A stretch of 64,000 nt of DNA. It comes from Dehalococcoides mccartyi (GTDB lineage Bacteria; Chloroflexota; Dehalococcoidia; UBA2979). The stretch spans positions 128,760 to 192,759 of the forward strand of contig CAMBFG010000006.1 of the NCBI GenBank assembly GCA_945865925.1, given 5' to 3'. The notes under the pieces were generated by a model. The model did not search any database. It was not told where the DNA came from and saw nothing but the letters and a program-made list of their open reading frames with translations. The translations under genes and the position numbers were made by a program. Below are positions 3,910 through 63,320 of the stretch, piece by piece (position 1 is the first letter of the stretch; each line of letters starts with the position of its first letter).

Positions 3910-4247
3910 GCCAGGTCAGCCGCCGCTACGCGGATCACGTCCGCGAGCACCTCGAGGGCGCGCGCCTCGTCCTCGTCAGCGGCCAGGAGGGTGACGCCGT
4001 TCGCCATCGCCATGCGTGCCGCCCACTGCACGAGGTGGGCGCGGGAGGCGAGGGCCTCGCGGTACTGCGTCGCGATCTCGCTGGTGCTGCCCGCGCTCAG
4101 CGACTCGGGCGTGGGGCCGAGGGCGGGCTCCCACTGGTCGACGTTGCCTCGTGCGCCTCGAGGCCAGCGGTGGGAGACGAGCACGCGCGTGTAGGGCACG
4201 TCCGGTGGCGCGCCCACGGAGCCGATAGCGATGCGCGGTTCGGCCAT
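3906..4247 (-). CDS. DUF488-like protein
   Basis: The 113-residue protein resembles DUF488 in its RVLVSHRWPRG stretch (family form RVLVDRLWPRG), a central W-E-P-x-L-G-P-T-PES region, a Tyr-Arg motif and a C-terminal VTLL strand. The biochemical function of the family is not established. The ATG at 4247 lies two bases past the stop of the tandem-DinB gene, with AAAGGG inside the end of that gene as the ribosome site, and the stop overlaps the next start by four bases. Confidence 0.7.
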   Translation of the reverse strand: MAEPRIAIGSVGAPPDVPYTRVLVSHRWPRGARGNVDQWEPALGPTPESLSAGSTSEIATQYREALASRAHLVQWAARMAMANGVTLLAADEDEARALEVLADVIRVAAADLA

Positions 4248-4249
4248 CG

Positions 4250-5248
4250 CTAACCCTTTGCGCTGCGGGCGAGGGGGCCCGGAAGGCTGAGGCTCGGCAT
4301 GCCCGCGAGGGAGCCGAGGGCCTGCAGTTCACCCGCGTGGTAGAAGACGTGCGCCGCCGACCGCGCCAGTTGTGCGCCGATCGGGTGCTGGTTGCCGCGA
4401 TACGTGAGCGTGCCCGCGAGGTCCGCCGGGGTGAGCGATTCGAGGTAGGGCGTGACCGCCTCGATGGTGCGGTCAAGCGACTCGCGCGCATCGTCCCAGT
4501 TGGGGACGCTGCGAGGCGCGCCGGGGCCGACGTTCGCGGCCTCCAGCCAGGGGTCGCGCATGCCGCGCATCCCGAGGTTCCAGAGCAGGTCTTCGCGGTT
4601 CGCGACATGCGCCACGATGAACGAGCCAGCGTTCAGCCGTGCGAACGCGCCCACCTGCGCGGGCACGGGCAGCGCGTCTGCGACTCGGCGTACCTCGTCC
4701 AGCCCGTCGAGCAGCATCGGTACGAGCGACGTCGAGGACGTGTCGGCGGCATCGATGTGCTGGCAGCGCGCCAGGGGGCCGGGGAGCGAAAGGTCGGGCA
4801 TCCCGACGAGCGAGCCCGCGACGGTGAGGTCGGCGGCGTGGACGTAGATGTGCGCGACGCTGCGGCGCACGAGGTAGCCCTTCGTGAGGCCCTGGTTCGC
4901 ATACGGAGAACCATCGAGGAGGGCGAGTTCGCGCAGCGAGCCGCCGTCGAGAACGGTGGTGTATTCACGCATCCGCTTGATCGCCTCGCGGAACGTATCG
5001 ATGCCCTCGCGGTAGGCGGTGTCGTCCGGCTGCGTCCGGCGGACGAGGTTGGGTTGCTCGGCAATCGGTCCGCTGATCCAGAGATCCTGTGTGCCCGCGA
5101 CGTGCGCCATGACGCCACCGGGCGCGCTTAACGGGCCAATGTGGCCCTCGCGGCCGGGTGCGGGGATCGCCTCCGCGGTCGCCAGAAAGGCGTCCTCGGC
5201 GTCGAGGAGCAGGCGGACGGGCAGGGGCATGGTGGGCGCGTCGGGCAT
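4250..5248 (-). CDS. Tandem-duplicated DinB-like protein
   Basis: The 332 residues consist of two homologous halves. Each half has a DinB-like histidine in an AHVA motif (H49; H214) and a late HxxxH pair (H133/H137; H300/H304), and each ends in nearly the same block, GSLVGMPDLSLPGPLAR (145-161) and GSLAGMPSLSLPGPLAR (312-328). The protein is therefore a fused internal dimer with both metal sites kept. The ATG at 5248 has no clear ribosome site but lies seven bases after a TAGACT box, so translation may be leaderless. The gene heads the minus-strand set that runs to 2739. Confidence 0.8.
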   Translation of the reverse strand: MPDAPTMPLPVRLLLDAEDAFLATAEAIPAPGREGHIGPLSAPGGVMAHVAGTQDLWISGPIAEQPNLVRRTQPDDTAYREGIDTFREAIKRMREYTTVLDGGSLRELALLDGSPYANQGLTKGYLVRRSVAHIYVHAADLTVAGSLVGMPDLSLPGPLARCQHIDAADTSSTSLVPMLLDGLDEVRRVADALPVPAQVGAFARLNAGSFIVAHVANREDLLWNLGMRGMRDPWLEAANVGPGAPRSVPNWDDARESLDRTIEAVTPYLESLTPADLAGTLTYRGNQHPIGAQLARSAAHVFYHAGELQALGSLAGMPSLSLPGPLARSAKG

Positions 5249-5623: not shown

Positions 5624-5736
5624 GGGGGCTCCTCATCTCAAACTTATCGCAGGGCGATCCTCATCGCCGGGCGTTCGCGCGTGCTCTGGTAGGCGAGCGG
5701 CTGGCTGATTCGAAGAAATGGTTCATTGCCCTCGGG

Positions 5737-6660
5737 GTGGCGGTGCTCCTGAGCGGAACGGTCATCGCGACCGTGAATGCCGCGGGACCGACCTACCTGA
5801 GCGATTGCACAGGCACGGCCTCACCACCGGCCTGCGGCACTCCCATCGCTCGGTGGGACATGTCCCACGGGACGATCCCCTTCTGCACGTCTCAGGCCGG
5901 CCGACCTGCTGGCATTGGCGCCGTTCAGTTCGAGGAGTCCGTCCGCGCCGCCGTCGCGACCTGGAATGCGGCAGGCGCACAGATCGTGGCGACCTATGCC
6001 GGAGACTGCGCCAGCAGCCCCGAGGTTCTGGGTGCCGCTCGCAATGAGGTTTGGTTCGATATGACCGGGACGACGCTCGGTGCGACCGAGGGGGCGAGGA
6101 CCGAGGCTCAGATGAACCTGTCGCCAAGCGTGAACCCGACCACTCGGACCATCGTCGAGGCTGACATCATTATCGGGCCGCTCGTGGGGGCTCTGGATCC
6201 GACCTGCTTCAGCGATGTGGTCGTCCATGAGATGGGGCATGCGCTCGGATTGGGCCATAGCGCCGACATGGGCGATGTGATGTACCCCGTCCTGCGTTCG
6301 GCCGTTGGCGGCGGCTGCACGGCGACGCCGTCAGCACAGGAGTACGAGGCACTTCGATCGCTCTACGGCGCTGCATCGGCCCCGGCTGTTCCATCGCACC
6401 CTGCGACTACGGCACCAGCGGCACTCGCGAAAACGGACTTCGGTGAGGGACGCCTGGCGCTGGCGCTGTTCCCAGGTGGCACTCTGGAACAACTGGAGGT
6501 CTGGGCCCGCGCCGCCGATGCCACTGGGCTGGCTCTGCCGGATGCCCGCGGAGTCCTTCGAGTCCTGGTGCTCGGCGCTCCGTCGTTCGTGAACGCGGAC
6601 TTCCGTGCGTCGTTCCCCAACGGCTGGGACATGGTTACGCCCGTGATTCTTTCGCGTTAG
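5737..6660 (+). CDS. Secreted matrixin-like zinc metalloprotease
   Basis: The protein has HEMGHALGLGH at residues 164-174 (HExxHxxGxxH: three zinc ligands and the catalytic Glu), followed by the DVMYP Met-turn, the hallmarks of metzincin/matrixin proteases. A hydrophobic N-terminus with an Ala-rich cleavage region (VNAAG) indicates secretion. An Ala/Pro linker leads to a C-terminal domain of about 90 residues of unknown type. The GTG at 5737 gives a short signal without positive charge; the same frame reads DSKKWFIALG just upstream, as a full signal peptide would, but only a CTG (5701) is available there. The real start may therefore be 36 bases earlier. Confidence 0.8.
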   Translation: MAVLLSGTVIATVNAAGPTYLSDCTGTASPPACGTPIARWDMSHGTIPFCTSQAGRPAGIGAVQFEESVRAAVATWNAAGAQIVATYAGDCASSPEVLGAARNEVWFDMTGTTLGATEGARTEAQMNLSPSVNPTTRTIVEADIIIGPLVGALDPTCFSDVVVHEMGHALGLGHSADMGDVMYPVLRSAVGGGCTATPSAQEYEALRSLYGAASAPAVPSHPATTAPAALAKTDFGEGRLALALFPGGTLEQLEVWARAADATGLALPDARGVLRVLVLGAPSFVNADFRASFPNGWDMVTPVILSR

Positions 6661-6757
6661 AGGATTCAGCCAGCACGAGACTGGTCTGGTGTGAAAACCA
6701 ACTCGGGATCATGCGGCGCCAGCCGCGTGATCCCGTTCCCATGATCGGACCGCCTGA

Positions 6758-7048
6758 CTACTGGCCTGACCGCACTCGACTCAGGCGGCGCGCTGCCACG
6801 CCCACCATCGCGATGCCTGCGATCAGCAGGCCTGCGGCCCCAAGGCCCGGCTCCCGTTCGTCTGAGAACCCGTCGGTACCGGTACCGGTCCCTGGCCGGA
6901 GTCGGTCCGCCCGATGGCACATTGGGTGGCGGGATCTGGATGAGTGTCACCGTCGGGGTGAGACCTCGGTCGACGGAACGCCTGTTGGCGGTACCCCAGT
7001 CGGCGGAGTGACCGCGGGCGTCCCCGGCGTCGGAATCAGGATCGGCAC
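6758..7048 (-). pseudogene. Remnant of a PTP-rich surface protein with C-terminal anchor
   Basis: The 433-base stretch between the protease and serS holds pieces of one protein in three minus-strand frames. First comes a Pro/Thr-rich part (VPILIPTPGTPAVTPPTGVP), then LTPTVTLIQIPPPNVPSGG in a second frame, then a GTGTGT spacer, the membrane helix GLGAAGLLIAGIAMVG and a basic tail ARRLSRVRSGQ in a third, ending at TAG 6758-6760. This order (linker, helix, Arg tail) is that of a cell-surface anchored protein. The frame breaks indicate decay, or assembly errors. The N-terminal domain is missing. Confidence 0.5.
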
Positions 7049-8465: not shown

Positions 8466-8915
8466 CTACCCCGCAGCCGCGATTGCCGCGAGGCCGAGTT
8501 CGCGCACGTCCGCGTTGACTTCGGGAGAGTCGAGGGCGGCGGCGTCGAACCAGGTCCAGTCGTGGCCATCGTCCGGGAGGATGGGGTCGGCCACGAGAGG
8601 CCGGGTGAAGTAGACGAAGTCGATGTGCTGGTGGGGCTCGTCCAGGCCGCCGTCCTTCGGGATGTCGTAGACGCCGATCTTTGCGGGCGCGAGAAGGTGC
8701 GCCGGTGGCTCTGCGACGAATCGAGGCCCGGTCGGGAGGACCTCGACGGCGAGCCCGGACTCCTCCAGCACCTCGCGTAGGACGGCCTGGATGGGGTCCT
8801 CGTCGGCCTCGATGTGCCCACCGGGGGGGAGCCAGATGCCGAGGCGCGGGTGCCGGTGGAGGGCAGTGCGGCCGCCGATCGAGACGAAGCCACTGACGGT
8901 GAAATGGCGGTGCAT
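8466..8915 (-). CDS. Nudix hydrolase
   Basis: The 149-residue protein has a perfect Nudix box from G33 to L55 (G33, E39, R47-E48, E51-E52, G54), which binds magnesium and cleaves nucleoside-diphosphate-linked substrates. The fold otherwise shows the usual W-L-P-P-G-G start of the box and a late WFDAAAL element. Substrate cannot be predicted. A GAGGAG ribosome site precedes the ATG at 8915. Confidence 0.85.
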   Translation of the reverse strand: MHRHFTVSGFVSIGGRTALHRHPRLGIWLPPGGHIEADEDPIQAVLREVLEESGLAVEVLPTGPRFVAEPPAHLLAPAKIGVYDIPKDGGLDEPHQHIDFVYFTRPLVADPILPDDGHDWTWFDAAALDSPEVNADVRELGLAAIAAAG

Positions 8916-8951
8916 GAGGCTCCTCGTGGGGTGGCCGGAGCGTACCCCGCA

Positions 8952-8990
8952 CAGATTCCAGATGCCATCTCAGATTCCCCCCGCAGATTC
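8952..8990. repeat. Three direct copies of CAGATTC
   Basis: CAGATTC occurs at 8952-8958, 8971-8977 and 8984-8990 in the 188-base divergent gap between the Nudix gene and the M23-like gene. Spacings are 19 and 13 bases. This could be an activator or repressor binding cluster; nothing else in the gap stands out. Confidence 0.4.
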
Positions 8991-9103
8991 GTTATGGCGT
9001 CACAGCGAACGTATCCCGGCGAGGTGCCGTTCCCTTAATGACCTCGGTGGGCGCCAGGGGGCGCGTACCGGTCATCACCAGCGCGAAAGCGCGAGGAGTC
9101 CAC

Positions 9104-10048
9104 ATGCGTCCATATCGTTTGGCGCTGCTTCCGGCGGCGGTCGTCTTTACGCTGCTGATTGCCCTCGTCGTCCCGTTCGCCACTCGCGATGCGGAAGCCG
9201 CGCCGCTCGGGCTGAAGCTCCCGGCGCTCGCTGGGACGCAGTGGAAGGCCGCCTCGGGCTACAACACCGCGACCCACCTCGGCGTTGACCCGTACGCGCT
9301 CGACCTCGTGCGTGCCGATGGCGCACCTACGGCCGGGTCGCCGGTGCTCGCGCCGGTCAGCGGGACGCTCGGCGGCGGTGGCACGTCGCAGGACTGTGCG
9401 TGGATCCGCGCCTCCGAGGTGACCGTCCTGATCTGTCACATCATCACGGAGCCGTACGCGCGCAACGCAACCATCGTCCAGGGGCAGCTCCTCGGCACCG
9501 TCGCGCCGGAGGGCCAGAAGGGCAACAACGGCCTGGCGCACATCCACCTCGCGGTGAACCTCGGCGGCAGCAGCGGCACCTCTCTCCCCTTCGACGGCGA
9601 CTACACCCTCGATGGCGTCCGCTTCCCGGCGACGACCGAGGCGAACGCGTACAGCGGTGCCCCGATCGTGACCTCGACGAACACGGCGATTGCCGGTGCC
9701 CCGGCGACGGCGACGCCGACGCCGCGAGCCACCTCGACCCCCCGAGTCACGACGCCGACGCCGACCTCGGTGCCGACCGTCGCGGCTTCGGCCACACGAG
9801 GGCGAATCGTGTCAGGCGTGGTGCAGACACAGGGCATCAGCCTCGTGATGTTCGGCGGCGGTACGAGTGCTGAACTGGTCTCCGGCGCGGGTTGTGGGAC
9901 GACCTCGGCGACCTTCTGGGTCACGACCGGCGGCCGCTTCGTCGGCTACATCCCGGCAGCACTGGTCCCCCAGGTGAACGCGGAGTGGGACGCGCTCTTC
10001 GCGACCGGCATCCCGGCGAACACGCCGATGATCGTGCGCTGTCGGTAG
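9104..10048 (+). CDS. Secreted M23-like peptidase domain protein
   Basis: The 314-residue protein starts with a signal peptide (MRPYRLALLP plus a hydrophobic stretch, cleavage after AEA near residue 32). An LytM/M23-like domain follows with HLGVD (H58, D62) and HIH (H146-H148) in the places of the zinc ligands, so peptidoglycan hydrolysis is possible. A Thr/Pro linker (about 200-235) leads to a C-terminal domain of about 75 residues of unknown function with two cysteines. The ATG at 9104 is preceded by GAGGAG; the earlier in-frame ATG at 9038 lacks a ribosome site. A hairpin terminator follows. Confidence 0.75.
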   Translation: MRPYRLALLPAAVVFTLLIALVVPFATRDAEAAPLGLKLPALAGTQWKAASGYNTATHLGVDPYALDLVRADGAPTAGSPVLAPVSGTLGGGGTSQDCAWIRASEVTVLICHIITEPYARNATIVQGQLLGTVAPEGQKGNNGLAHIHLAVNLGGSSGTSLPFDGDYTLDGVRFPATTEANAYSGAPIVTSTNTAIAGAPATATPTPRATSTPRVTTPTPTSVPTVAASATRGRIVSGVVQTQGISLVMFGGGTSAELVSGAGCGTTSATFWVTTGGRFVGYIPAALVPQVNAEWDALFATGIPANTPMIVRCR

Positions 10049-52824: not shown

Positions 52825-53712
52825 CTAGCTCTCGGCGGGTGGGGCGTCCTCGGCCTGGAACCACCCGAGGAAGATCGCGCCCGCGGCCGCCAGCATGATG
52901 ATCGTGCCCGGGACCCACATCACGAGGCCACCGATCTGCTGATCCCGGAGCGGCGTCCAGTCCACGATCCGCGAGATATGCCCGTACTCCTGGTACAGCG
53001 GCAGAGAGGCGAACACGATGAACGCCGCCGCCCCGTCCTTCAGTGCCCCCACCACGACGAGATAGAGCACCCGTGGCATCGCCTCCAGCCGAGGTCGGTG
53101 CGGGGCAGCCTCGATGACGTTCCACCAGAACAGCGTCGCCGCGAAGGCGAACGAGGCGTGCTGGAACACGTGCAGCGACGGCTGACGGAGCGCCGCGTCG
53201 TACCACCCGGGTACGAGGTGCCACACCCATACCGTCCCGATGAAGACGAGGGCAGCGGCTCCCGGGCTCGTCAGCCCTCGGTAGGCGCTGCTACCGAGGC
53301 GGCTCCCGGCGATCGGCCGGACGACACCCTGGCGCAGCCAGTGAGGCATCCCGCGTAGCAGGGGCGTCGCGGGCGCACCCAGCAGGATCCCGGGGACGGC
53401 GAGCATCATCACGATCTCGTGCTGGACCATGTGGAACGTCAGATGGTGGGCCGCGAGCCGGTCGAGTGGCGACTCCTGCGCGAGCACGAGCAGTGCGACC
53501 CCCGCGAGGAATATTCCCGTCCGCCAGCGCGGATGTGGCCTCGACCGTTCGGGCCACTCGCGCAGGCCGCGCAAGTACCACCACGTCAGCAGCGCCACCG
53601 GTATCAGGAACGTGGGGTCGAGGCGCCAGACCTGCCACCACACGCGCCCATCGGGGGCCACCTCGTGGGCGACACGCAGTGCCTCGGCTGCGCCCGGGAG
53701 CAGCAGCAGCAT
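52825..53712 (-). CDS. Cytochrome oxidase assembly factor CtaG-like (second copy)
   Basis: The 295-residue protein has seven hydrophobic helices with the caa3_CtaG features HLTFHMVQHEIVMMLAVPGILLGAP and late GLVMWVPG. CtaG of the caa3 type is required to insert copper or haem into subunit I in Bacillus. It is clearly homologous to the next gene; the two are a tandem duplication with two bases between. Confidence 0.88.
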   Translation of the reverse strand: MLLLLPGAAEALRVAHEVAPDGRVWWQVWRLDPTFLIPVALLTWWYLRGLREWPERSRPHPRWRTGIFLAGVALLVLAQESPLDRLAAHHLTFHMVQHEIVMMLAVPGILLGAPATPLLRGMPHWLRQGVVRPIAGSRLGSSAYRGLTSPGAAALVFIGTVWVWHLVPGWYDAALRQPSLHVFQHASFAFAATLFWWNVIEAAPHRPRLEAMPRVLYLVVVGALKDGAAAFIVFASLPLYQEYGHISRIVDWTPLRDQQIGGLVMWVPGTIIMLAAAGAIFLGWFQAEDAPPAES

Positions 53713-53714
53713 CG

Positions 53715-54671
53715 CTAGCCGGTGCTGCCTGCGGTGGCCCGCGATGCCGCCTGCGAGGCTGCCAGGGCGTCCTCGGCGGCCTCCTTCGCGAGTTGCTCGT
53801 CATTCCCGCGCTTGAACCAGAAGCCGAGGATGATGCCGGCCGTGATCAGGTTCAGCAGTTCACCGAACGGTACCCACATCAGCAGCCCCGCGAGTTGCTG
53901 GTCCTCGATCGGTGAGCCAGGCAGGAAGCGGTATACCCGCTCGTACGTGGGGTAGAACGGCTCGTCCGCGAAGACGATGAACGCCGCCAGGATGTGCTTC
54001 GGGATCATCGCGCCGTAGAAGTACAGGATCCGTGCCAACGGTGGGATGCGAGAGTGCAGCGGCTTCGGGTCGATGATGTTCCACCAGAAGATCATCGACA
54101 CCAGCAGGAACGAGGCGTGTTGGAGGTTGTGCAGCCAGTCCTCGTTCAGTGCCCGGTCGTACAGGCCCGGGTACAGGTGCCAGCCCCACTGCGACATCGC
54201 GAACAGCGCCATCGCCACGATCGGGAACGTCACCACTCGATACACCGCGCGCGCGACGACGTTCCCTGCCACCGGCCGTACGACGCCCTGCCGCAGCCAT
54301 CGAGGTATCCCGCGCAGCATCGGTGTCGTGGGTGCGCCGAGCAGGATCAGCGGCGGCACGATCATCATCACCACGTTGTGCTGGATCATGTGCATCGAGA
54401 ACTGGTGCTCGCCCAGCCGGTCGAGGGGTGACTCAAACGCCAGCACCAGCACGATCAGCCCGGCATAGTACGAAGCCACCCGCCACGACGAGTGCTCGCG
54501 TGAGCGCTCCGGCCAGCGGCGCAGCCCTCGGGCGTACCAGAAGCCGACCAGCGCGATCGGGATCAGCAGCAGGGGGTCGAAGTTCCACGCCGTCCACCAC
54601 CGGGCGCTCTCGTTGATGACGTCGTGGGCCGCCCACTCGAAGCCGGTGGGGGCGAAGTCGGGGCTGGCCAT
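53715..54671 (-). CDS. Cytochrome oxidase assembly factor CtaG-like (first copy)
   Basis: The 318-residue protein has seven helices and HQFSMHMIQHNVVMMIVPPLILLGAP, PHW-like RWLRQGVVRPV, HLYPGLYDRAL, FWWNIIDPKPL and LLMWVPFGEL, matching the caa3_CtaG family. Homology with the neighbouring gene is clear along the full length. GGGAGG precedes the ATG at 54671. It is convergent with the cox operon. Confidence 0.9.
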   Translation of the reverse strand: MASPDFAPTGFEWAAHDVINESARWWTAWNFDPLLLIPIALVGFWYARGLRRWPERSREHSSWRVASYYAGLIVLVLAFESPLDRLGEHQFSMHMIQHNVVMMIVPPLILLGAPTTPMLRGIPRWLRQGVVRPVAGNVVARAVYRVVTFPIVAMALFAMSQWGWHLYPGLYDRALNEDWLHNLQHASFLLVSMIFWWNIIDPKPLHSRIPPLARILYFYGAMIPKHILAAFIVFADEPFYPTYERVYRFLPGSPIEDQQLAGLLMWVPFGELLNLITAGIILGFWFKRGNDEQLAKEAAEDALAASQAASRATAGSTG

Positions 54672-54773
54672 GGCGTCCTCCCGGTGGGTGCCCCCTAGTC
54701 TCGGGCACCGCCCCCCGAGGCGCACGCGAGCGGGGGCCGGTCAGATTCGCCGCCCCTCGCGCGCTTCCCCTCG

Positions 54774-54836: not shown

Positions 54837-54877
54837 TCACCTCCGGCCATCGGGCCGCCCCGCCGAAAGGCCCTCCG

Positions 54878-56608
54878 ATGCAGACGCTTCGCGTGGCGCT
54901 CGCCCAACTGAATACGACCATCGGCGACCTCGAGGGCAACCGCTCGAAGATCCTCGAAGCCGCCCGCCGCGCCGCCGCCCAGGACGCTGACGTCGTCGCG
55001 TTCTCCGAACTCGCCATCACCGGCTACCCGCCGGAGGACCAGCTGCTCCGCTCCGCGTTCATCGAAGAGGCCGCGCGCAGCCTCCAGGCGCTCGCCGCGG
55101 AGGCGAAGGGGCTGCCGCCGCTCATCGTCGGCTGCGTCGAGTTCGACCAGCACCTCTACAACGCCGCCGCCGTCGTCCACGGCGGACGTGTCGTCGCGAC
55201 CTACCGCAAGCAGAAACTGCCGAACTACGGTGTCTTCGACGAGGAGCGCTACTTCCAGCCGGGCGCGGAGACTCTCGTCGTCACGATCGCCGGGGTGCCC
55301 GTCGGCATCACGATCTGCGAGGACGCCTGGTACCCCGGCGGCCCGATCACAGACCTTGCGATCGCCGGTGCGGCGGTCATCGTCAATATCAACGGCTCGC
55401 CGTTCTACTCCGGCAAGGCCCGCGACCGCGAGCGCATGCTGGCCACGAGGGCTGCCGACAACACCGTCGCACTCGCCTACGTGAACCAGGTCGGCGGTCA
55501 GGACGAACTCGTCTTCGACGGGAACTCGATCGTCTTCGACGCCTCCGGCGAGATCATCGCCCGCGGCGCATCGATGGAAGAAGACCTGCTGATCACAGAC
55601 ATCCTCGTGGAGGAGGTCCTGCAGCGGCAGTTGCACGAGTCCCGCCTGCGCCGCCTCCGAGGCGTCGCCGAGCCCTCGACCCCCGTCCGCCGCATCGAGG
55701 TCACCCCACAGGCGGAGTCCGCCCGGGCGCCGCGCCGCAATGTCGTTGCCCCGCTCGCCAACACCGTGGCGGAGACCTACCGCGCGCTCGTCGTCGGCAC
55801 GCGCGACTACGTCCAGAAGATCGGCTTCGAGCACGCCTTCATCGCGCTCTCCGGCGGCATCGACTCCGCCATCGTTGGCGCGATCGCCGTCGACGCCCTC
55901 GGTGCCGATCACGTCACCGGCGTGTCGATGCCCTCGCGCTACTCCTCGGAAGGTTCGATCTCGGACGCCGTCGATCTGGCGCAACGGCTGGGGATCCGGC
56001 TCGTCTCCCTCCCGATCGAGGCGGTCCACCAGGCCGCCCTCGACACGCTGGAGCGTGAGTTCGGTGCCGATGACCTCGGCGTCGCCGGGGAGAACGTCCA
56101 GAGTCGGGCGCGCGGCATGCTGGTGATGGCGATGTCCAACCACCGCCCGAGGTCGCTCGTACTCACCACGGGCAACAAGTCCGAGTACGCCTGCGGCTAC
56201 GCCACGATGTACGGCGACATGGTGGGCGGCTTCGCGGTGATCAAGGACGTGCCGAAGACGCTCGTCTGGGAACTCGCGCGCCACCGCAACACCCTCGGCG
56301 CGGTCATCCCCGAGAACTCCATCGAGAAGCCCCCCAGCGCGGAACTGCGCCCCAACCAGTTGGACTCCGACTCGCTCCCCGCCTACGAGGTGCTCGACCC
56401 CATCATCGAGGCCTACGTGGAAGACGACCTCTCGCTCGAAGCGATCGTCTCGCGCGGCAACGACGAGGCGACCGTGAAGCGGGTGATCGACATGATCAAC
56501 CGCAACGAGTACAAGCGCCGTCAGGCCCCCCCGGGCGTGAAGATCACCCCCCGCGCCTTCGGCCGCGACCGTCGTCTCCCCCTCGCGACTCGCTATCGGG
56601 GCTACTAG
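54878..56608 (+). CDS. nadE: NAD+ synthase (glutamine-hydrolysing)
   Basis: This 576-residue enzyme makes NAD from nicotinate adenine dinucleotide, ATP and glutamine. The N-terminal nitrilase/glutaminase domain has Glu in SELAITGYPPED, Lys in YRKQKLPNYGVFDE and Cys in ITICEDAWYPGG. The C-terminal synthase domain has the pyrophosphate loop LSGGIDSA and STGNKSEYACGY-type residues (TTGNKSE). The ATG at 54878 follows GAAAGG. It is under the double-palindrome promoter. Confidence 0.96.
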   Translation: MQTLRVALAQLNTTIGDLEGNRSKILEAARRAAAQDADVVAFSELAITGYPPEDQLLRSAFIEEAARSLQALAAEAKGLPPLIVGCVEFDQHLYNAAAVVHGGRVVATYRKQKLPNYGVFDEERYFQPGAETLVVTIAGVPVGITICEDAWYPGGPITDLAIAGAAVIVNINGSPFYSGKARDRERMLATRAADNTVALAYVNQVGGQDELVFDGNSIVFDASGEIIARGASMEEDLLITDILVEEVLQRQLHESRLRRLRGVAEPSTPVRRIEVTPQAESARAPRRNVVAPLANTVAETYRALVVGTRDYVQKIGFEHAFIALSGGIDSAIVGAIAVDALGADHVTGVSMPSRYSSEGSISDAVDLAQRLGIRLVSLPIEAVHQAALDTLEREFGADDLGVAGENVQSRARGMLVMAMSNHRPRSLVLTTGNKSEYACGYATMYGDMVGGFAVIKDVPKTLVWELARHRNTLGAVIPENSIEKPPSAELRPNQLDSDSLPAYEVLDPIIEAYVEDDLSLEAIVSRGNDEATVKRVIDMINRNEYKRRQAPPGVKITPRAFGRDRRLPLATRYRGY

Positions 56609-56620
56609 GGCGTTCGAGGG

Positions 56621-57028
56621 CTACGGCTCGGGTTCGTCGTCCTCGATCAGCGAGGGGTCGAGGCCATCCGCCTCGATGCGCTTGGTGACGACCGCCGTGA
56701 GCGTGTCGAGCGCGGTCAGCTCGATCCACGTCTCGAACGCGCCGCGTACTTCCGCGAACGCATCCTCGATCTCCGCCTCGAACTGCGGGCGAGTCATCGA
56801 GGCGTTCCGCGCTGTGCTGAGTTGCTCCACGAGCCGCTCAATCTTCGGTGAGACCTGCGCGAACATCTGTAGCGCCGCGTCGTCCTCGGCGGTGGCCGCG
56901 CGGTCGCGCATGATCTCGAGCGCTCCCGCCACCCACGCCAGCGCGCCGAGCATGGTCCCGGCGTCGCGGCGCGTGAGGTTCAGCCGCACCGGCTGAGGCC
57001 GGTCGAGCCGCCCCTCCGGCGAGGTCAT
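56621..57028 (-). CDS. Unknown helical protein coupled to the ROK-like gene
   Basis: The 135-residue protein is mostly alpha helical (about 20-45 and 50-115) with an acidic end (LIEDDEPEP). I recognise no family. It has no signal peptide or membrane segment, so it is cytoplasmic. The ATG at 57028 overlaps the stop of the ROK-like gene by four bases, so it is made with it. Confidence 0.6.
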   Translation of the reverse strand: MTSPEGRLDRPQPVRLNLTRRDAGTMLGALAWVAGALEIMRDRAATAEDDAALQMFAQVSPKIERLVEQLSTARNASMTRPQFEAEIEDAFAEVRGAFETWIELTALDTLTAVVTKRIEADGLDPSLIEDDEPEP

Positions 57029-57825
57029 TCGAGGCGTTCCGTACGGTCGCCCTCGTATGCCAGGGTCTCGGCCGCCCGCAGCGCGCCCAGCAGCGCCCCC
57101 CCGTCGCCGAGTGCCGGCCGGACGACACGCGCACCCGGCGCGACCTCGTCCAGCACACCCTGCAGCACCGGCCCCAGCGCGTTCACATGCGCGTCCTCCC
57201 CATCGAGGATCACGACCACCGGGTCCACGAGCGCGGCTAGGTCTGCGAGCACTCCCGTCACCTGCTCCAACACGTCGCCTTCGAGGGGCAGCGACGGGTC
57301 GAGTTCCGGGAGGGCGGGCAGCGACCCCGCGCGGTTGCCCGCACCCGCGAGGATGCGGCCGTTGGAGAGGACTGCTGCCTGCGGGATGCCGCGTAGGCTG
57401 ACGTACAGCGCGTCCATCGTGCCGTCCGCGGCACCCGCGCTCCACTCGCCTCGCAGGGCGGCCTGCACGCGGTTCAGCGCGACCACGGGGGCGTCGATAT
57501 GGCGGCGGATGGCGTCGACGACGTGCAGGCCATCCCACTCCGTCTGGCCGTTGCTCTCGACGAGGATGCCGGCCACCGGGTCCACGAGGCCGGGGCACGC
57601 GATCGCGATCGCCTGTGCCCAGCGCTTCTGCCCCTCGCGTGCGAATGCGGTGGCAATGCGCCCACCGACCTCCCATGCCCACGCGGCCTCGTTCGGCAGC
57701 GGGCCGAGGTCGACCGTGTCGCGCTCGATCACCTCGCCGTCGCTGTCCACGAGGACGATGCGCAGCGCGGTCGCCGTGAAGTCCACGGCGACGAGGACTG
57801 GCTCCGGCAGGTCCTCGGACGTCAC
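57025..57825 (-). CDS. ROK-like protein without catalytic motifs
   Basis: The 266-residue protein aligns with ROK-family sugar kinases: D15-FTATALRIVLVD replaces the phosphate-binding DIGGTK, ACPGLVDP matches the VPGP region, and N118-R-V-Q replaces the N-D-x-N motif that holds the catalytic Asp. The zinc-binding CxCGxxGC is absent and the late GDGGALLGALRA matches the ASKHA end. It is therefore likely not a kinase. Substrate binding or regulation is possible. The GTG at 57825 overlaps the DegT-like stop (GTGA). Confidence 0.65.
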   Translation of the reverse strand: MTSEDLPEPVLVAVDFTATALRIVLVDSDGEVIERDTVDLGPLPNEAAWAWEVGGRIATAFAREGQKRWAQAIAIACPGLVDPVAGILVESNGQTEWDGLHVVDAIRRHIDAPVVALNRVQAALRGEWSAGAADGTMDALYVSLRGIPQAAVLSNGRILAGAGNRAGSLPALPELDPSLPLEGDVLEQVTGVLADLAALVDPVVVILDGEDAHVNALGPVLQGVLDEVAPGARVVRPALGDGGALLGALRAAETLAYEGDRTERLE

Positions 57826-58904
57826 AGCGCCCACCTCTCCACTTTGCGGATCGCCTGTGCCACCAGGTCCATGTCCTTCGAGGTCAGCCCGGCGTGCAGC
57901 GGCAGCGCGATCATCTCGCGCGGCAGCCGGTTCGCCGCCAGCGTCCGATCGTCCGTCATCGAGGCGTCCGTCGCCAGCGAGGGCCCCAGCGCCGCTTCGA
58001 CCGGCACCCCCTCTGCCTGCAGCACCGCCAGCGTCTCTTCGAGCGAGCGCTTCCACAGCATGCTGCGCAACCGGAACACATAGCGGTCGTACCCGTGGTG
58101 GATCCATCGTCCGTGCGACATCGAGGCCACACCGCGCATCCCGCGCAGGTTGAACGTCAGCTCCCAGGCCAGTTCGCGGCGTGCCCGCAGCGCGTCCTCG
58201 CTGCCCCGCCACTCCGCGAGCGCCACCCGAGCGACGGCCTCCTCGATCGGCGCACCCTCGGCGCGCACGCGCGCTGCCAGCGTCTCGTCCCGCAGCACGA
58301 GGAGCGCCCCGCCATCGACGCCCACCGCGATGCCGCCGGAGAGCAGATGCGGCGCACCCAGCGCGAATACCGCCGCGCGACCGATCGAGCCCGCGGCCGC
58401 CCCTCGGTACGACGCACCGACGGCCTCTGAGCACTCCTCGATCAGCGTGCAACCTCGCTCGCGCGCCACCGGCAGCACGGTTTCGAGGACGGGCGCATGC
58501 CCGAACGGGTACGCAACGACCACCGCGGCCGTCTCCGGCGTCGCCACCGTCGAGAACCCGCGCGCCGAGATCGCCGCCGTGTCCGCGTCACCCTCGGCGG
58601 CCACCACGGTCAGCCCAGCCGCCTCGACCACCGCGACCCACGAGGTCGCCCCGAGTGCCGGCAGCACCACCTCGCGTCGCCCCGTGACTGTCACCTGGAG
58701 CGCCCACCGTCGCGCCTCAGCCGCCGAGGCAAGCGCGATCACCGTCGACGCGTCGAGGCCCAGCCCAGCGGCAAACTCCGCCTCCAGCGCACGCACCGGT
58801 GCAGCGTCGGTGGCGGGGGCGACGGTGGGCGGCTCCGGCCATGCGCCGAGGCGGGCGGGCTCACCGCCGTCGATGGCGAGGGGCGCAGCGGTGTCGTTGG
58901 TCAA
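57822..58904 (-). CDS. DegT/DnrJ-like protein lacking the PLP lysine
   Basis: The 360-residue protein has the sugar aminotransferase layout: VVLPALGATSWVAVVEAAGLT, LIEECSEAVGASYRG, then VFALGAPHLLSGG where family members carry F-x-F-x-x-x-K. The Schiff-base lysine position is His186, so normal aminotransferase or dehydratase chemistry with PLP is unlikely. The TTG at 58904 follows GGGGAGA. It heads the three-gene operon and is divergent from folP. Confidence 0.7.
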   Translation of the reverse strand: MTNDTAAPLAIDGGEPARLGAWPEPPTVAPATDAAPVRALEAEFAAGLGLDASTVIALASAAEARRWALQVTVTGRREVVLPALGATSWVAVVEAAGLTVVAAEGDADTAAISARGFSTVATPETAAVVVAYPFGHAPVLETVLPVARERGCTLIEECSEAVGASYRGAAAGSIGRAAVFALGAPHLLSGGIAVGVDGGALLVLRDETLAARVRAEGAPIEEAVARVALAEWRGSEDALRARRELAWELTFNLRGMRGVASMSHGRWIHHGYDRYVFRLRSMLWKRSLEETLAVLQAEGVPVEAALGPSLATDASMTDDRTLAANRLPREMIALPLHAGLTSKDMDLVAQAIRKVERWAL

Positions 58905-59027
58905 CAGATCTCCCCGTACCGTCCAGTCTTCCCGCAGGCGGCCGAAGGGCGAGCGTACGGGCGCACCGGGACGCCCGCAACGCGAACCGAGGCGGGCCGA
59001 CGCGTATCCTCGATGGCCGGAGGGGCC

Positions 59028-59876
59028 ATGCTGCTGCACCTGCGCGACCGCACCATCGATGTGACCCATCGCACAGCGGTGATGGGCATCCTGAACGTCT
59101 CGGACGACTCCCCGATCGCCTTCTCGCGTGTCGGCGCCGGCGAGGCCCTCGACCGCGCGGTCACCCTCGCCCGGGCCGGCGCTGAGATCGTCGATATCGG
59201 CGCGCACTCCACGCGTACCGGCGGCCGCGACCTCACACCCGATGAGGAGGCCGCCCGCGTCGTCCCGGTCATCGAGGCGTGCGTGCGCGAGGGCCTGCTG
59301 ACCTCCGTCGACACGTGGACGCCCGCGGTTGCCCGTGCGGCGGCCGAGGCAGGCGTCCACCTCCTGAACGACGTCACTGGCGTCACTGACCTCGCGATGC
59401 TCACCGTCGCTGTCGAGTACCACCTACCCGCCTGTGTCATGCACATGCGCGGCGAACCGAAGCACCATCGCGAGGTCGACCAGTCTTACGCCGACATCAG
59501 CGCGGAGGTCACCGCCTTCCTCGTCGAGCAGGCGCGCGTCCTCGACGCTGCGGGCGCAGGCACGCCGTGGCTCGACCCCGGCTTCGGCTTCGGGAAGTCC
59601 GCCGCCGACAACCTCGCGATGCTGGACGGCCTGCCGAGGCTCGTCGAGACGGGTTACCCCGTACTCGTCTCAGCGTCGCGCAAGGGCTTCCTCGCCGAAC
59701 TGATGGGCCTCGGTGACCGCCAGGACGTCGAGGGCCTGTTGGAGGCCACGATCGGCTTCAACGTGCTCGCCGCCGCTGCCGGCACGCATGTCGTCCGTGT
59801 CCACGATGTCGCTGAGGTCGCTCGGGCGCTGAGTGTCGTGAACGCGTTCCGACGCCAGCGCGCCGGACTCGTGTAG
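59028..59876 (+). CDS. folP: Dihydropteroate synthase
   Basis: The 282-residue barrel enzyme couples p-aminobenzoate to the pterin pyrophosphate in folate synthesis. It has MGILNVSDDSP (usual form NVTPDSF), DIGAHSTRTGG, SVDTWTPAVARAAAEAG, LNDVTG, DPGFGFGKS and the C-terminal SASRKGFL. Divergence in the first loop is mild; sulphonamide-related residues cannot be judged. GGAGGGG lies just before ATG 59028; an in-frame ATG at 59013 is an alternative. Confidence 0.88.
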   Translation: MLLHLRDRTIDVTHRTAVMGILNVSDDSPIAFSRVGAGEALDRAVTLARAGAEIVDIGAHSTRTGGRDLTPDEEAARVVPVIEACVREGLLTSVDTWTPAVARAAAEAGVHLLNDVTGVTDLAMLTVAVEYHLPACVMHMRGEPKHHREVDQSYADISAEVTAFLVEQARVLDAAGAGTPWLDPGFGFGKSAADNLAMLDGLPRLVETGYPVLVSASRKGFLAELMGLGDRQDVEGLLEATIGFNVLAAAAGTHVVRVHDVAEVARALSVVNAFRRQRAGLV

Positions 59877-60169: not shown

Positions 60170-60490
60170 TCAGTGTGCGCCTGAGCGCCTCAATCTGCGC
60201 TCAACAGGCTTCGGAATCACGACGCAGGCGCCCCCAGCGATTGCCGGGATGAGAAAGATCTCCGCGCCCTCGCGTACCGGCTCCAGTGGGTCGTTCTCCG
60301 TCACCTCAGAGTCGATCGCCACGGCGATCTCGCCGCGCAGCGCACCCTCGTCGAACAGCACCCGCGCGAGCGCCGGCGCCTCCGCCGCGAGGGCATCGAG
60401 GACGCGCTGGAGCGTGTGGCCGGCGACCTCAATGGTCGCGCGGCCGTCCGTCAGGTCGCGCCAGTGGGCGGGGATATGCACGGTGGCCAT
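60170..60490 (-). CDS. MoaD/ThiS-like protein with C-terminal tail
   Basis: The 106-residue protein has a ubiquitin-like MoaD/ThiS fold (VHIPAHWRDLT, LFDEGALRGEIAVAIDSE, LEPVREGAEIFLIPAIAGG). In the family the chain ends in Gly-Gly for adenylation and thiocarboxylation; here the GG (86-87) is followed by 19 residues. The protein would need cleavage to be a sulfur carrier, or does something else. It lies between a molybdenum enzyme and a DUF4118 gene. Confidence 0.7.
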   Translation of the reverse strand: MATVHIPAHWRDLTDGRATIEVAGHTLQRVLDALAAEAPALARVLFDEGALRGEIAVAIDSEVTENDPLEPVREGAEIFLIPAIAGGACVVIPKPVERRLRRSGAH

Positions 60491-60507
60491 CGTGTCCGCC
60501 TGACCGT

Positions 60508-62796
60508 CTACTCGCGGGGGAGTAACTCGTCCAGGATGCGCGTCGGCGTCACGGGCGTGTGGTAGAAGTTCACGCCGATGGCGTCCCGCAGCGCGTTCCG
60601 GATCGCAGCCATCGGCGGCACGATCGGGGCCTCGCCCACGCCTCGCACGCCGTAGGGGTGGCCGGGGTTCGGCACCTCCACCAGGATCACCTCGATCGGC
60701 GGCAGGTCGTTCGCCACCGGCATCCGGTAGTCCAGGAACGAGCCGTTTCGCAGGCGGCCCTGATCGTCGTACCAGTACTCCTCCTGCAACGCCATGCCGA
60801 TGCCCTGAACCGCGCCGCCCTGGATCTGGCCCTCCACGTACGCGGGGTGGATCGCCGTGCCCACGTCCTGCACCGCCGTGTAGCGCAGCACCGTCACCTT
60901 CCCTGTGTCGCGGTCCACCTTCACGTCCGCGATGTGCCCCGCGTACGCCGGCCCCGTCGTGTTCTTTCGCGACGACACTGTGACCGCCACGTGGCCGCCC
61001 GTCGTCGGGAACCGCTTGCAGATCTCGTCGAAGGTGAACTGCTGCGCTTTGCCGTCCTTGTCAGTGCCCGTGATCACGGCGTCGTTGCTGTACGTGACCG
61101 TCGAGGCGTCCACACCCCAGATCCGCGCCGCGCGCTCCACGAGGCGCTTGCGGATCTCCTGGCCCAGTTCGTACGCCACCCAACCGCCCGCGAATGTCGT
61201 CCGGCTGCCGCCTGTCACGGCCGTGTAGCCGACAGAATCCGTGTCGGTGACCTGCGGCTTGATCTGTTCGTACGGCACGCCCAGCGACTCTGCCAGTTGC
61301 ATCGCCAGCGACGCCCGCGTCCCGCCGATGTCGACCGACCCGAGGATCAGCGAGACCGAGCCGTCTGGGTTCACCGTGGCACTCGAGGTCGACTCCATGC
61401 CGCCGTTGAACCAGAAGCCGAGTGCTACGCCCCGCCCGGTGTCCTCGCCCTGTAGTTCTGAGTTGTAGTGGGCGCTCTCTCGGATTGCCGTGATCACCGC
61501 TTTCGCACCGATGCGCGGCAACGGTGCGCCCGCACTGTTCGTCGTGCCTTCCTCAGGCGCGTTCTTCTCTCGGATCACCATCGGATCGATATCGAGCGCC
61601 CGGGCGATCTCGTCCACTACCGACTCGACCGCGTACTCCGAGGCCGGCGCACCCGGGGCGCGGTAGGCGGCGGTCTTCGGCGTGTTCGTCACCACGTCGA
61701 AGCCGTCGATGCGCTGGTTCGCGAGGTTGTACGGGGCGAGCGCGCACATGACGCCCGCGCCGACCGCCGAGCCGGGGTAGGCGCCCGCGGCGTAGCAGAG
61801 CTCGACGTCCGCTGCGACGAGCGTGCCGTCCTTCTTCGCACCGATCTTCACGCGGTTCCACGTCGCCGCCGTCGGCCCGGTCGCCTGGAAGACCGCCTCG
61901 CGCGGCATCCACATTTTCACCGGCCGCCCGGTCTGCTTCGACAGCAGCGCTGCGACGGGTTCGAGGTAGACCGGGATCTTCCCGCCGAAGCCGCCACCGA
62001 TCTCCATCGGCACGACCTTGATCCTGGCGACGGGCTGCTGCAGCAGCGTGGCGACCTGTTCGCGTACGGCGAAGGAGCCCTGTGTCGACGTCCAGACCGT
62101 GATCTGCCCGTCCTGGTTCCAGTACGCCGTGCCGTTCTGCGGCTCGATGTAGCCTTGGTGAAACTGGCTCGTCGTGAACTCACGCTCGATGACGATGTCC
62201 GCCTCGGCGAAGCCGGCGGCGATGTCACCCTTCTCGACGCGCATGTGCATCGCGATGTTCGTCTCGCGGTCCGTTGGCGTGTCCACGCCGCGCGCGCGCA
62301 CGTTCGTGCGCAGGTCGCTGTGCAGGATCGGCGCTGTGCCGAGCATCGCCTCCTTCACGTCGATGACGAAGGGCAGCACCTCGTACTCGACCTCGATCAG
62401 CGCGAGGGCTTCCTCAGCGATGTGCCAGTCGATGGCAGCGACCGCCGCCACGGCGTGGCCGTGGTACAGCGTCTTGTCGCCCGCGAGGACGTTGTCCACG
62501 AGCCATTTCGGGTTCGCGGTCCCCTCACCGAGGTCGAGCGTGCCCGACTCCTGCCGCGGGAAGTCCGCGTTCGTCACGATCGCCTTCACGCCCGGCAGCG
62601 CGAGCGCCTTCGAGCTGTCGATGCGCACGATCCGAGCGTGGGCGTGCGGTGCGCGCAGGATCGATCCGAACAGCATCCCTTCGAGGACGATGTCTGCGCC
62701 GTAGGCAGCGCGTCCCGTCACCTTGTCCACGCCGTCCGGGCGGATGGGGCGGGTGCCGATGACCTTGTAGACGGGCTTCTCCGGTGTGGCGACCAT
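60508..62796 (-). CDS. Molybdenum hydroxylase large subunit (xanthine dehydrogenase family)
   Basis: The 762-residue subunit binds the molybdopterin cofactor: VTGRAAYGADI opening, EIGGGFGGK, TAAYRAPGAP where CO dehydrogenase would have AYxCSFR, GLGFWFNGG-like region and the catalytic Glu in RGVGEAP near the end. It is a xanthine/aldehyde-oxidase-type hydroxylase rather than CO dehydrogenase. The substrate is unknown. AGGAGG precedes ATG 62796. It is followed by a MoaD-like gene. Confidence 0.92.
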   Translation of the reverse strand: MVATPEKPVYKVIGTRPIRPDGVDKVTGRAAYGADIVLEGMLFGSILRAPHAHARIVRIDSSKALALPGVKAIVTNADFPRQESGTLDLGEGTANPKWLVDNVLAGDKTLYHGHAVAAVAAIDWHIAEEALALIEVEYEVLPFVIDVKEAMLGTAPILHSDLRTNVRARGVDTPTDRETNIAMHMRVEKGDIAAGFAEADIVIEREFTTSQFHQGYIEPQNGTAYWNQDGQITVWTSTQGSFAVREQVATLLQQPVARIKVVPMEIGGGFGGKIPVYLEPVAALLSKQTGRPVKMWMPREAVFQATGPTAATWNRVKIGAKKDGTLVAADVELCYAAGAYPGSAVGAGVMCALAPYNLANQRIDGFDVVTNTPKTAAYRAPGAPASEYAVESVVDEIARALDIDPMVIREKNAPEEGTTNSAGAPLPRIGAKAVITAIRESAHYNSELQGEDTGRGVALGFWFNGGMESTSSATVNPDGSVSLILGSVDIGGTRASLAMQLAESLGVPYEQIKPQVTDTDSVGYTAVTGGSRTTFAGGWVAYELGQEIRKRLVERAARIWGVDASTVTYSNDAVITGTDKDGKAQQFTFDEICKRFPTTGGHVAVTVSSRKNTTGPAYAGHIADVKVDRDTGKVTVLRYTAVQDVGTAIHPAYVEGQIQGGAVQGIGMALQEEYWYDDQGRLRNGSFLDYRMPVANDLPPIEVILVEVPNPGHPYGVRGVGEAPIVPPMAAIRNALRDAIGVNFYHTPVTPTRILDELLPRE

Positions 62797-62828
62797 GGCG
62801 ACCTCCTCGTGCCCCGACCGGGCGCGGG

Positions 62829-63320
62829 CTACTTCTTCAGGGTGCGCATCTGCTCCGCGGCGGCCTGCACCGCCAGGATGATCTTGTCGTAGCCCGTGCA
62901 GCGGCAGAGGTTGCCGGCGAGCCAGAACCGCACTTCGTCGTCCGTCGGCGCGGGGTTCTCTGCGAGCAGGGCCGTCGATGACATCAAGAAGCCCGGCGTG
63001 CAGATGCCGCATTGCAGGGCGGCCTCCTCCAGGAAGCACTGCTGCAACGGTGCTAGCCCCTCCGGGGTCGCGAGGCCCTCGACGGTCCGCACGGTCGAGC
63101 CTTCGATCTCCGCCGCCATCACGCAGCACGAGTTCACCAGGCGGCCATCGAGGATCACGGCGCAGGCGCCGCAGTTGCCGTTGTTGCAGCCCTCTTTGAC
63201 GCCCTTGAGGTTCAGCCGCTCGCGCAGTGCCTCGAGCAGGGAGTCCCGCGAGTCCGCGAGGAATGTGCGTTCCTCGCCGTTGATCGTGGAGGTAATGACC
63301 AGTCGTTCGCTTGTCGCCAT
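62829..63320 (-). CDS. Molybdenum hydroxylase 2Fe-2S subunit
   Basis: The 163-residue subunit has two iron-sulfur domains: the plant-type CNNGNCGACAVI and the helical CGICTPGFLMSS with CRCTGY. It passes electrons from the molybdenum centre to the FAD subunit. GAGGAG precedes ATG 63320. The gene lies between the FAD and large subunit genes, as in this family. Confidence 0.95.
   Translation of the reverse strand: MATSERLVITSTINGEERTFLADSRDSLLEALRERLNLKGVKEGCNNGNCGACAVILDGRLVNSCCVMAAEIEGSTVRTVEGLATPEGLAPLQQCFLEEAALQCGICTPGFLMSSTALLAENPAPTDDEVRFWLAGNLCRCTGYDKIILAVQAAAEQMRTLKK

Follow-up and report, generated by a model that had tools for sequence, protein, structure and literature searches.

Conservation of a ROK-like pseudokinase, with a helical and often a DegT-like partner gene, across one order of Dehalococcoidia

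Two of the proteins analyzed here have their closest described relatives in the ROK sugar kinases, such as N-acetylmannosamine kinase (2yhw) and glucokinase (2qm1), and in the DegT/DnrJ/EryC1/StrS aminotransferases, such as perosamine synthase (3bn1). ColD and E1 are active PMP-dependent 3-dehydratases that carry a histidine at the position of the PLP lysine. MecR2, a XylR-derived anti-repressor, binds MecI directly, and one of its variants has no DNA-binding domain (PMC3406092). FolP2 is a second DHPS of high-GC Gram-positive bacteria, and an E. coli folP mutant was not complemented by the folP2 gene of M. leprae (PMC1971073). Proteins resembling these systems were found side by side in a stretch of DNA of 64,000 nucleotides, which is called the window below. 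Three genes of the minus strand form the operon under study (Table 1). Their coordinates, their order and the overlap of four bases at each junction were correct in an earlier note on this DNA, and the TTG start of the DegT-like gene agrees with the starts of its orthologues. The operon probably acts in binding or regulation, and not as a pair of enzymes.

Table 1. Coordinates of the operon, its neighbors and the DUF2520 genes (positions in the window, unless a locus is named).
Feature	Position	Strand	Remarks
DegT-like pseudo-aminotransferase	57822..58904	-	360 aa, TTG start; PF01041, E 3.8e-25
ROK-like pseudokinase	57025..57825	-	GTG start; PF00480, E 4.4e-13; constant member of the system
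Helical protein	56621..57028	-	135 aa; predicted three-helix bundle
GTGA, overlap of DegT-like stop and ROK-like start	57822..57825	-	Sequence and overlap survey
ATGA, overlap of ROK-like stop and helical start	57025..57028	-	Sequence
His186 codon, PLP-lysine column	58347..58349	-	Alignment against a genuine aminotransferase
Arg codon, ROK catalytic Asp column	57469..57471	-	Alignment; D in genuine ROK proteins
DHPS-like gene, altered pABA loops, divergent neighbor	59013..59876	+	TIGR01496, E 9.7e-71; ATG at 59013 or 59028
nadE (glutamine-dependent NAD synthetase), convergent neighbor	54875..56608	+	NF010588, E 7.4e-210; conserved position
DUF2520 gene, L079 (g7)	8911-9936
DUF2520 gene, L069 (g4)	5632-6888
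DUF2520 gene, L073 (g5)	3924-4886
DUF2520 gene, L064 (g17)	6046-6954

Among 215 sampled genomes of the class, orthologues of the ROK-like protein were confined to one uncultured order of Dehalococcoidia (Chloroflexota), which is represented there by a single family, f1. They were recovered at E 3.5e-49 or better, and the next match (1.6e-21) was an ordinary ROK protein. The class-sample matches from outside the order were ordinary ROK proteins, one example being G231 with an intact VENDAN, and in a wider search of genome contigs beyond the order the remaining matches were weak. Orthologues were drawn from searches of 44 genomes of the order. The ROK-like gene was present in 39 of them, in every one of the 17 genera and in all 15 good assemblies, and was single copy in most of the 39. 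The gene and its adjacency were also kept in reduced genomes of 1.1–1.2 Mb. By reading the locus in each genus concerned, the DegT-like gene was found to be missing in six genera (g2, g4, g6, g7, g14, and g15) and the helical gene in four (g2, g10, g11, and g12). Each absence is explicable by a single change on the ROK tree, whose backbone is weakly resolved and in which g2 sits on a very long branch. Since the DegT-like and helical genes are absent from several genera, a fixed complex of three is not supported, and the former picture of three partners locked together has to be given up; only the ROK-like gene is constant.

The usual gene order was cytochrome oxidase genes, nadE, the helical, ROK-like and DegT-like genes, and the divergent DHPS-like gene, and the synteny of the three-gene operon with nadE was kept across the order. 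A 4-base overlap was available between the ROK-like and helical genes at 24 of 26 orthologous loci, and between the DegT-like and ROK-like genes at 16 of 23. Because these overlaps and the synteny with nadE recur across loci, the arrangement is more than chance. The earlier note had also suggested a link to cell-wall or nucleotide-sugar metabolism. The flanks do not support this: nadE and cytochrome oxidase genes border the operon at one end and the DHPS-like gene at the other, and no nucleotide-sugar genes were present in the conserved neighborhood of the operon.

Several further genes were observed around these loci. In g7, g4, g5, and g17 the DHPS-like gene is separated from the operon by a Rossmann-type gene (DUF2520), which points the same way as the DHPS-like gene. 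In g17 the DegT-like gene is closely preceded by a small HTH_3 regulator gene (L064, 7139-7399), which has a relative in g13. In the window, two tandem CtaG-like frames (52825-54725, minus strand) accompany the cytochrome oxidase genes, the first matching Caa3_CtaG and the second clustering with the first. A ThiS/MoaD-like gene stands beside a long frame that, read by eye, resembles the molybdenum subunit of xanthine dehydrogenase-type enzymes (60170-63129, minus strand).

The DHPS-like protein passes the DHPS model TIGR01496 with 238 bits against a cut-off of 162.6, and differs from the usual pattern in its loops. Loop 1 reads xxDSPxxxS instead of TPDSFS, with DSP and S34 invariant; loop 2 is without STRP in the operon-adjacent copies, and DTW or DSW stands in place of DTxK. 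The motifs DPGF, SRK, and RVHDV are retained almost throughout. The gene adjoins the operon in nearly all of the loci read, G008 being one genome without it there. Most f1 genomes also carry a stand-alone DHPS with canonical loops elsewhere. In the good assemblies G027 (g10) and G029 (g12) the only other DHPS match was a frame of some 900 codons, a length that fits MetH, and in these two genera the DHPS-like protein could be the working DHPS. Within the class sample, DHPS of the adjacent type reached E below 1e-75 in two families only, f1 and f20, and in f20 no member of the trio was found near the gene. In f20 (L237, L238, and L239), including genus g36, the DHPS-like gene was seen by eye to come after an apparent pyruvate dehydrogenase E1-E2-E3 operon and to be followed by FmdB-like zinc-ribbon and thioredoxin-like genes.

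This neighborhood bears on the view that the genes are independent and merely stand in an inherited order, the ROK-like and helical pair having a role of its own that is unlinked to the DHPS-like or DegT-like protein. We consider this unlikely. Conservation extends over the whole stretch that begins with the cytochrome oxidase genes and ends with the DHPS-like gene, and it takes in genes without any plausible link; the existence of the DHPS-like gene in f20 without the trio agrees with independence and counts against a tie of the module to the DHPS-like gene. However, the 4-base overlaps have been kept through deep divergence, and adjacency has been kept in the reduced genomes. As for a DHPS-like partnership of the proposed module, the evidence is adjacency, which could itself be gene order inherited within one order.

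The ROK-like protein combines a degenerate active site with what is predicted to be a complete ROK fold. The PF00480 (ROK) match covers its first half only. An AlphaFold2 model based on 30 orthologues reached a pLDDT of 92.9 and a pTM of 0.90; its best VIA match was 2yhw (245 residues at rmsd 3.2, Z 25.6), and further ROK kinases and repressors ranked next. As had been noticed earlier, the GGT, the N-D-x-N site and the zinc motif are gone. The DxGGT phosphate motif reads DFTAT in the window and is without glycines in the orthologues, NDxN reads NRVQ, and about 56 columns, including the zinc-motif segment, are missing in comparison with genuine ROK proteins. Orthologues with the catalytic Asp restored were sought and none was found among 35, the column holding Arg in 32, Glu in two, and His in one. 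DxGGT, the catalytic Asp and the zinc motif are all intact in a genuine ROK paralogue encoded by the same genome. New invariant residues have appeared in the ROK-like family (WxWE..GGR, H106, R116, and E255; A6 numbering). A ROK repressor of the NagC/Mlc type was rejected, since only about 10 residues precede the first ROK strand and there is no N-terminal HTH domain.

Assignment of the DegT-like protein to the DegT family follows from the PF01041 (DegT_DnrJ_EryC1) profile, which scored above its cut-off and supports a family relationship at the level of sequence. His186 indeed occupies the column of the PLP lysine, which is Lys in a genuine aminotransferase. No orthologue with the lysine restored was found among 22, in which the column holds His in 15, Leu in four, and Arg, Gln, or Asp in the others. 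The only well-conserved lysine of the family, K354, is present in 19 of 22 and has six residues between it and the end of the protein at most. The phosphate-binding and fSf positions vary, and the C-terminal half has acquired new invariant residues (RR..AW, MxH, YDRY, W284, and EG). The column of the Asp that contacts the pyridine ring of PLP is still D or E, and binding of PLP or PMP is therefore possible. The other two PF01041 matches in the genome of the window were SelA and a beta-eliminating lyase. A heterodimer with a genuine DegT enzyme was rejected, as none was found in this genome (assembly 92% complete), and this absence counts in favor of a non-catalytic module.

The same residues could be read as the mark of repurposed enzymes: remodelling of the former active sites would have given the proteins a different chemistry, and they would be catalytic, although neither as a sugar kinase nor as an aminotransferase. 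The new invariant residues of the ROK-like family and of the DegT-like C-terminal half fit this reading, as do the near invariance of the Arg that replaces the catalytic Asp and the retention of D/E where the PLP ring is contacted. Against it, no Lys, Asp, or His arrangement characteristic of the parent families has stayed invariant, the phosphate-binding positions vary, and the invariant residues could equally form an interface. Repurposing is a rather doubtful account. A more specific catalytic role, that of a PMP-dependent 3-dehydratase of the ColD/E1 type with His in place of Lys, was considered for the DegT-like protein. As ColD and E1 are active with His, His186 alone is no proof of inactivity, and a dehydratase-like relative within the order also has His at this column. 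Nevertheless, the seven orthologues with L, R, Q, or D argue against a His mechanism shared by the whole family, and the candidate was rejected on this variation; together with the variable phosphate-binding and fSf positions and a conserved neighborhood lacking nucleotide-sugar genes, it makes such a role very improbable.

The helical protein gave no Pfam or NCBIfam match above cut-off. Its model is a three-helix bundle (pLDDT 85.9, pTM 0.69), with which Foldseek returned nothing below E 0.001. The best VIA match was a region of Wzc at Z 11.7, a value that unrelated helical bundles also reach and that is under the level meaningful for such folds, and no convincing fold relative emerged.

The three genes are maintained under purifying selection. 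Within the genus, dN/dS calculated by the Nei-Gojobori method was 0.07–0.14 for the ROK-like gene, 0.12–0.16 for the helical gene and 0.13–0.21 for the DegT-like gene, compared with 0.06–0.12 for nadE, whose ratios were obtained from the computed dN and dS. These values, together with the fact that the missing residues were restored in no orthologue, indicate maintained pseudoenzymes and not decaying genes. That the trio consists of decaying pseudogenes is barely credible and was rejected: the loss of catalytic residues and the patchy DegT-like and helical genes would suit decay, but the frames are open at dN/dS of 0.07–0.21, the ROK model is confident and retention extends to the reduced genomes, so that for the ROK-like gene decay is already contradicted. 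The proposal that selection keeps binding without catalysis stands in part: family signatures are present, with the ROK fold also predicted, catalytic residues are absent from all orthologues compared and selection is purifying. Ligand sensing or scaffolding, as proposed in the earlier note, is a candidate role.

The explanation that we tentatively favor is an order-specific, non-catalytic module of the ROK-like and helical proteins, joined in part of the order by the DegT-like protein, and possibly a regulatory or scaffold partner of the DHPS-like neighbor. Alignment and structure prediction show that a ROK sugar kinase, stripped of the phosphate loop, the catalytic Asp and the zinc segment, became a stable ROK-fold protein. 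Gene order and overlaps show it to be co-translated with the helical protein, across the conserved 4-base overlap of stop and start, and in most lineages a DegT-family protein that lacks the PLP lysine belongs to the co-translated set. Overlaps of four bases often join the genes of interacting proteins, and on this ground we infer that the ROK-like and helical proteins may associate in a complex; its dead active site would serve as a ligand- or protein-binding surface, and the DegT-like protein would be an optional subunit. Less certainly, the conserved divergent arrangement hints that the module may be co-regulated with the adjacent DHPS-like enzyme and act as its scaffold or allosteric partner. 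The boldest form of this explanation is improbable: an undescribed order-wide regulatory complex of the ROK pseudokinase with the helical protein as its three-helix adaptor and, optionally, the pseudo-aminotransferase, which together would govern a DHPS paralogue repurposed to make a product other than folate.

If the favored explanation is true, a ROK pseudokinase would belong to the core proteins of a whole bacterial order and be made together with a helical partner and, optionally, a pseudoenzyme of the DegT family; no such case was found in the literature searched. The order would then offer a natural experiment in which one partner is fixed and the others are gained or lost. Moreover, the remodelled DHPS common to two families of Dehalococcoidia would give a testable lead, either to a changed step of the folate pathway or to a different reaction of pterins.

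Compared with the known systems, the DegT-like protein resembles the DegT/DnrJ/EryC1/StrS aminotransferases in a family match over both halves (3bn1, E 6.1e-17), and differs from them in the absence of the PLP lysine from all 22 orthologues. It shares with ColD and E1 the His at the lysine position in the window, in contrast to which only 15 of the 22 orthologues have it. The DHPS-like protein is comparable to FolP2 in being an additional DHPS paralogue that, in many genomes, accompanies a canonical one, but its similarity to DHPS 2 of M. tuberculosis (2vp8, E 1.6e-27) is only distant and its neighborhood is another. With the ROK sugar kinases the ROK-like protein has in common the predicted complete fold, and it is set apart by the lack of DxGGT, the Arg in place of the catalytic Asp and the deletion of the zinc segment. 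MecR2 (4ija) belongs to other organisms and other genes, and no partner repressor is known here, so that the analogy is functional only; however, it has the ROK fold (Z 22.6 to the ROK-like model) and acts through protein contact, and may thus serve as a precedent for a ROK-fold protein working in this manner.
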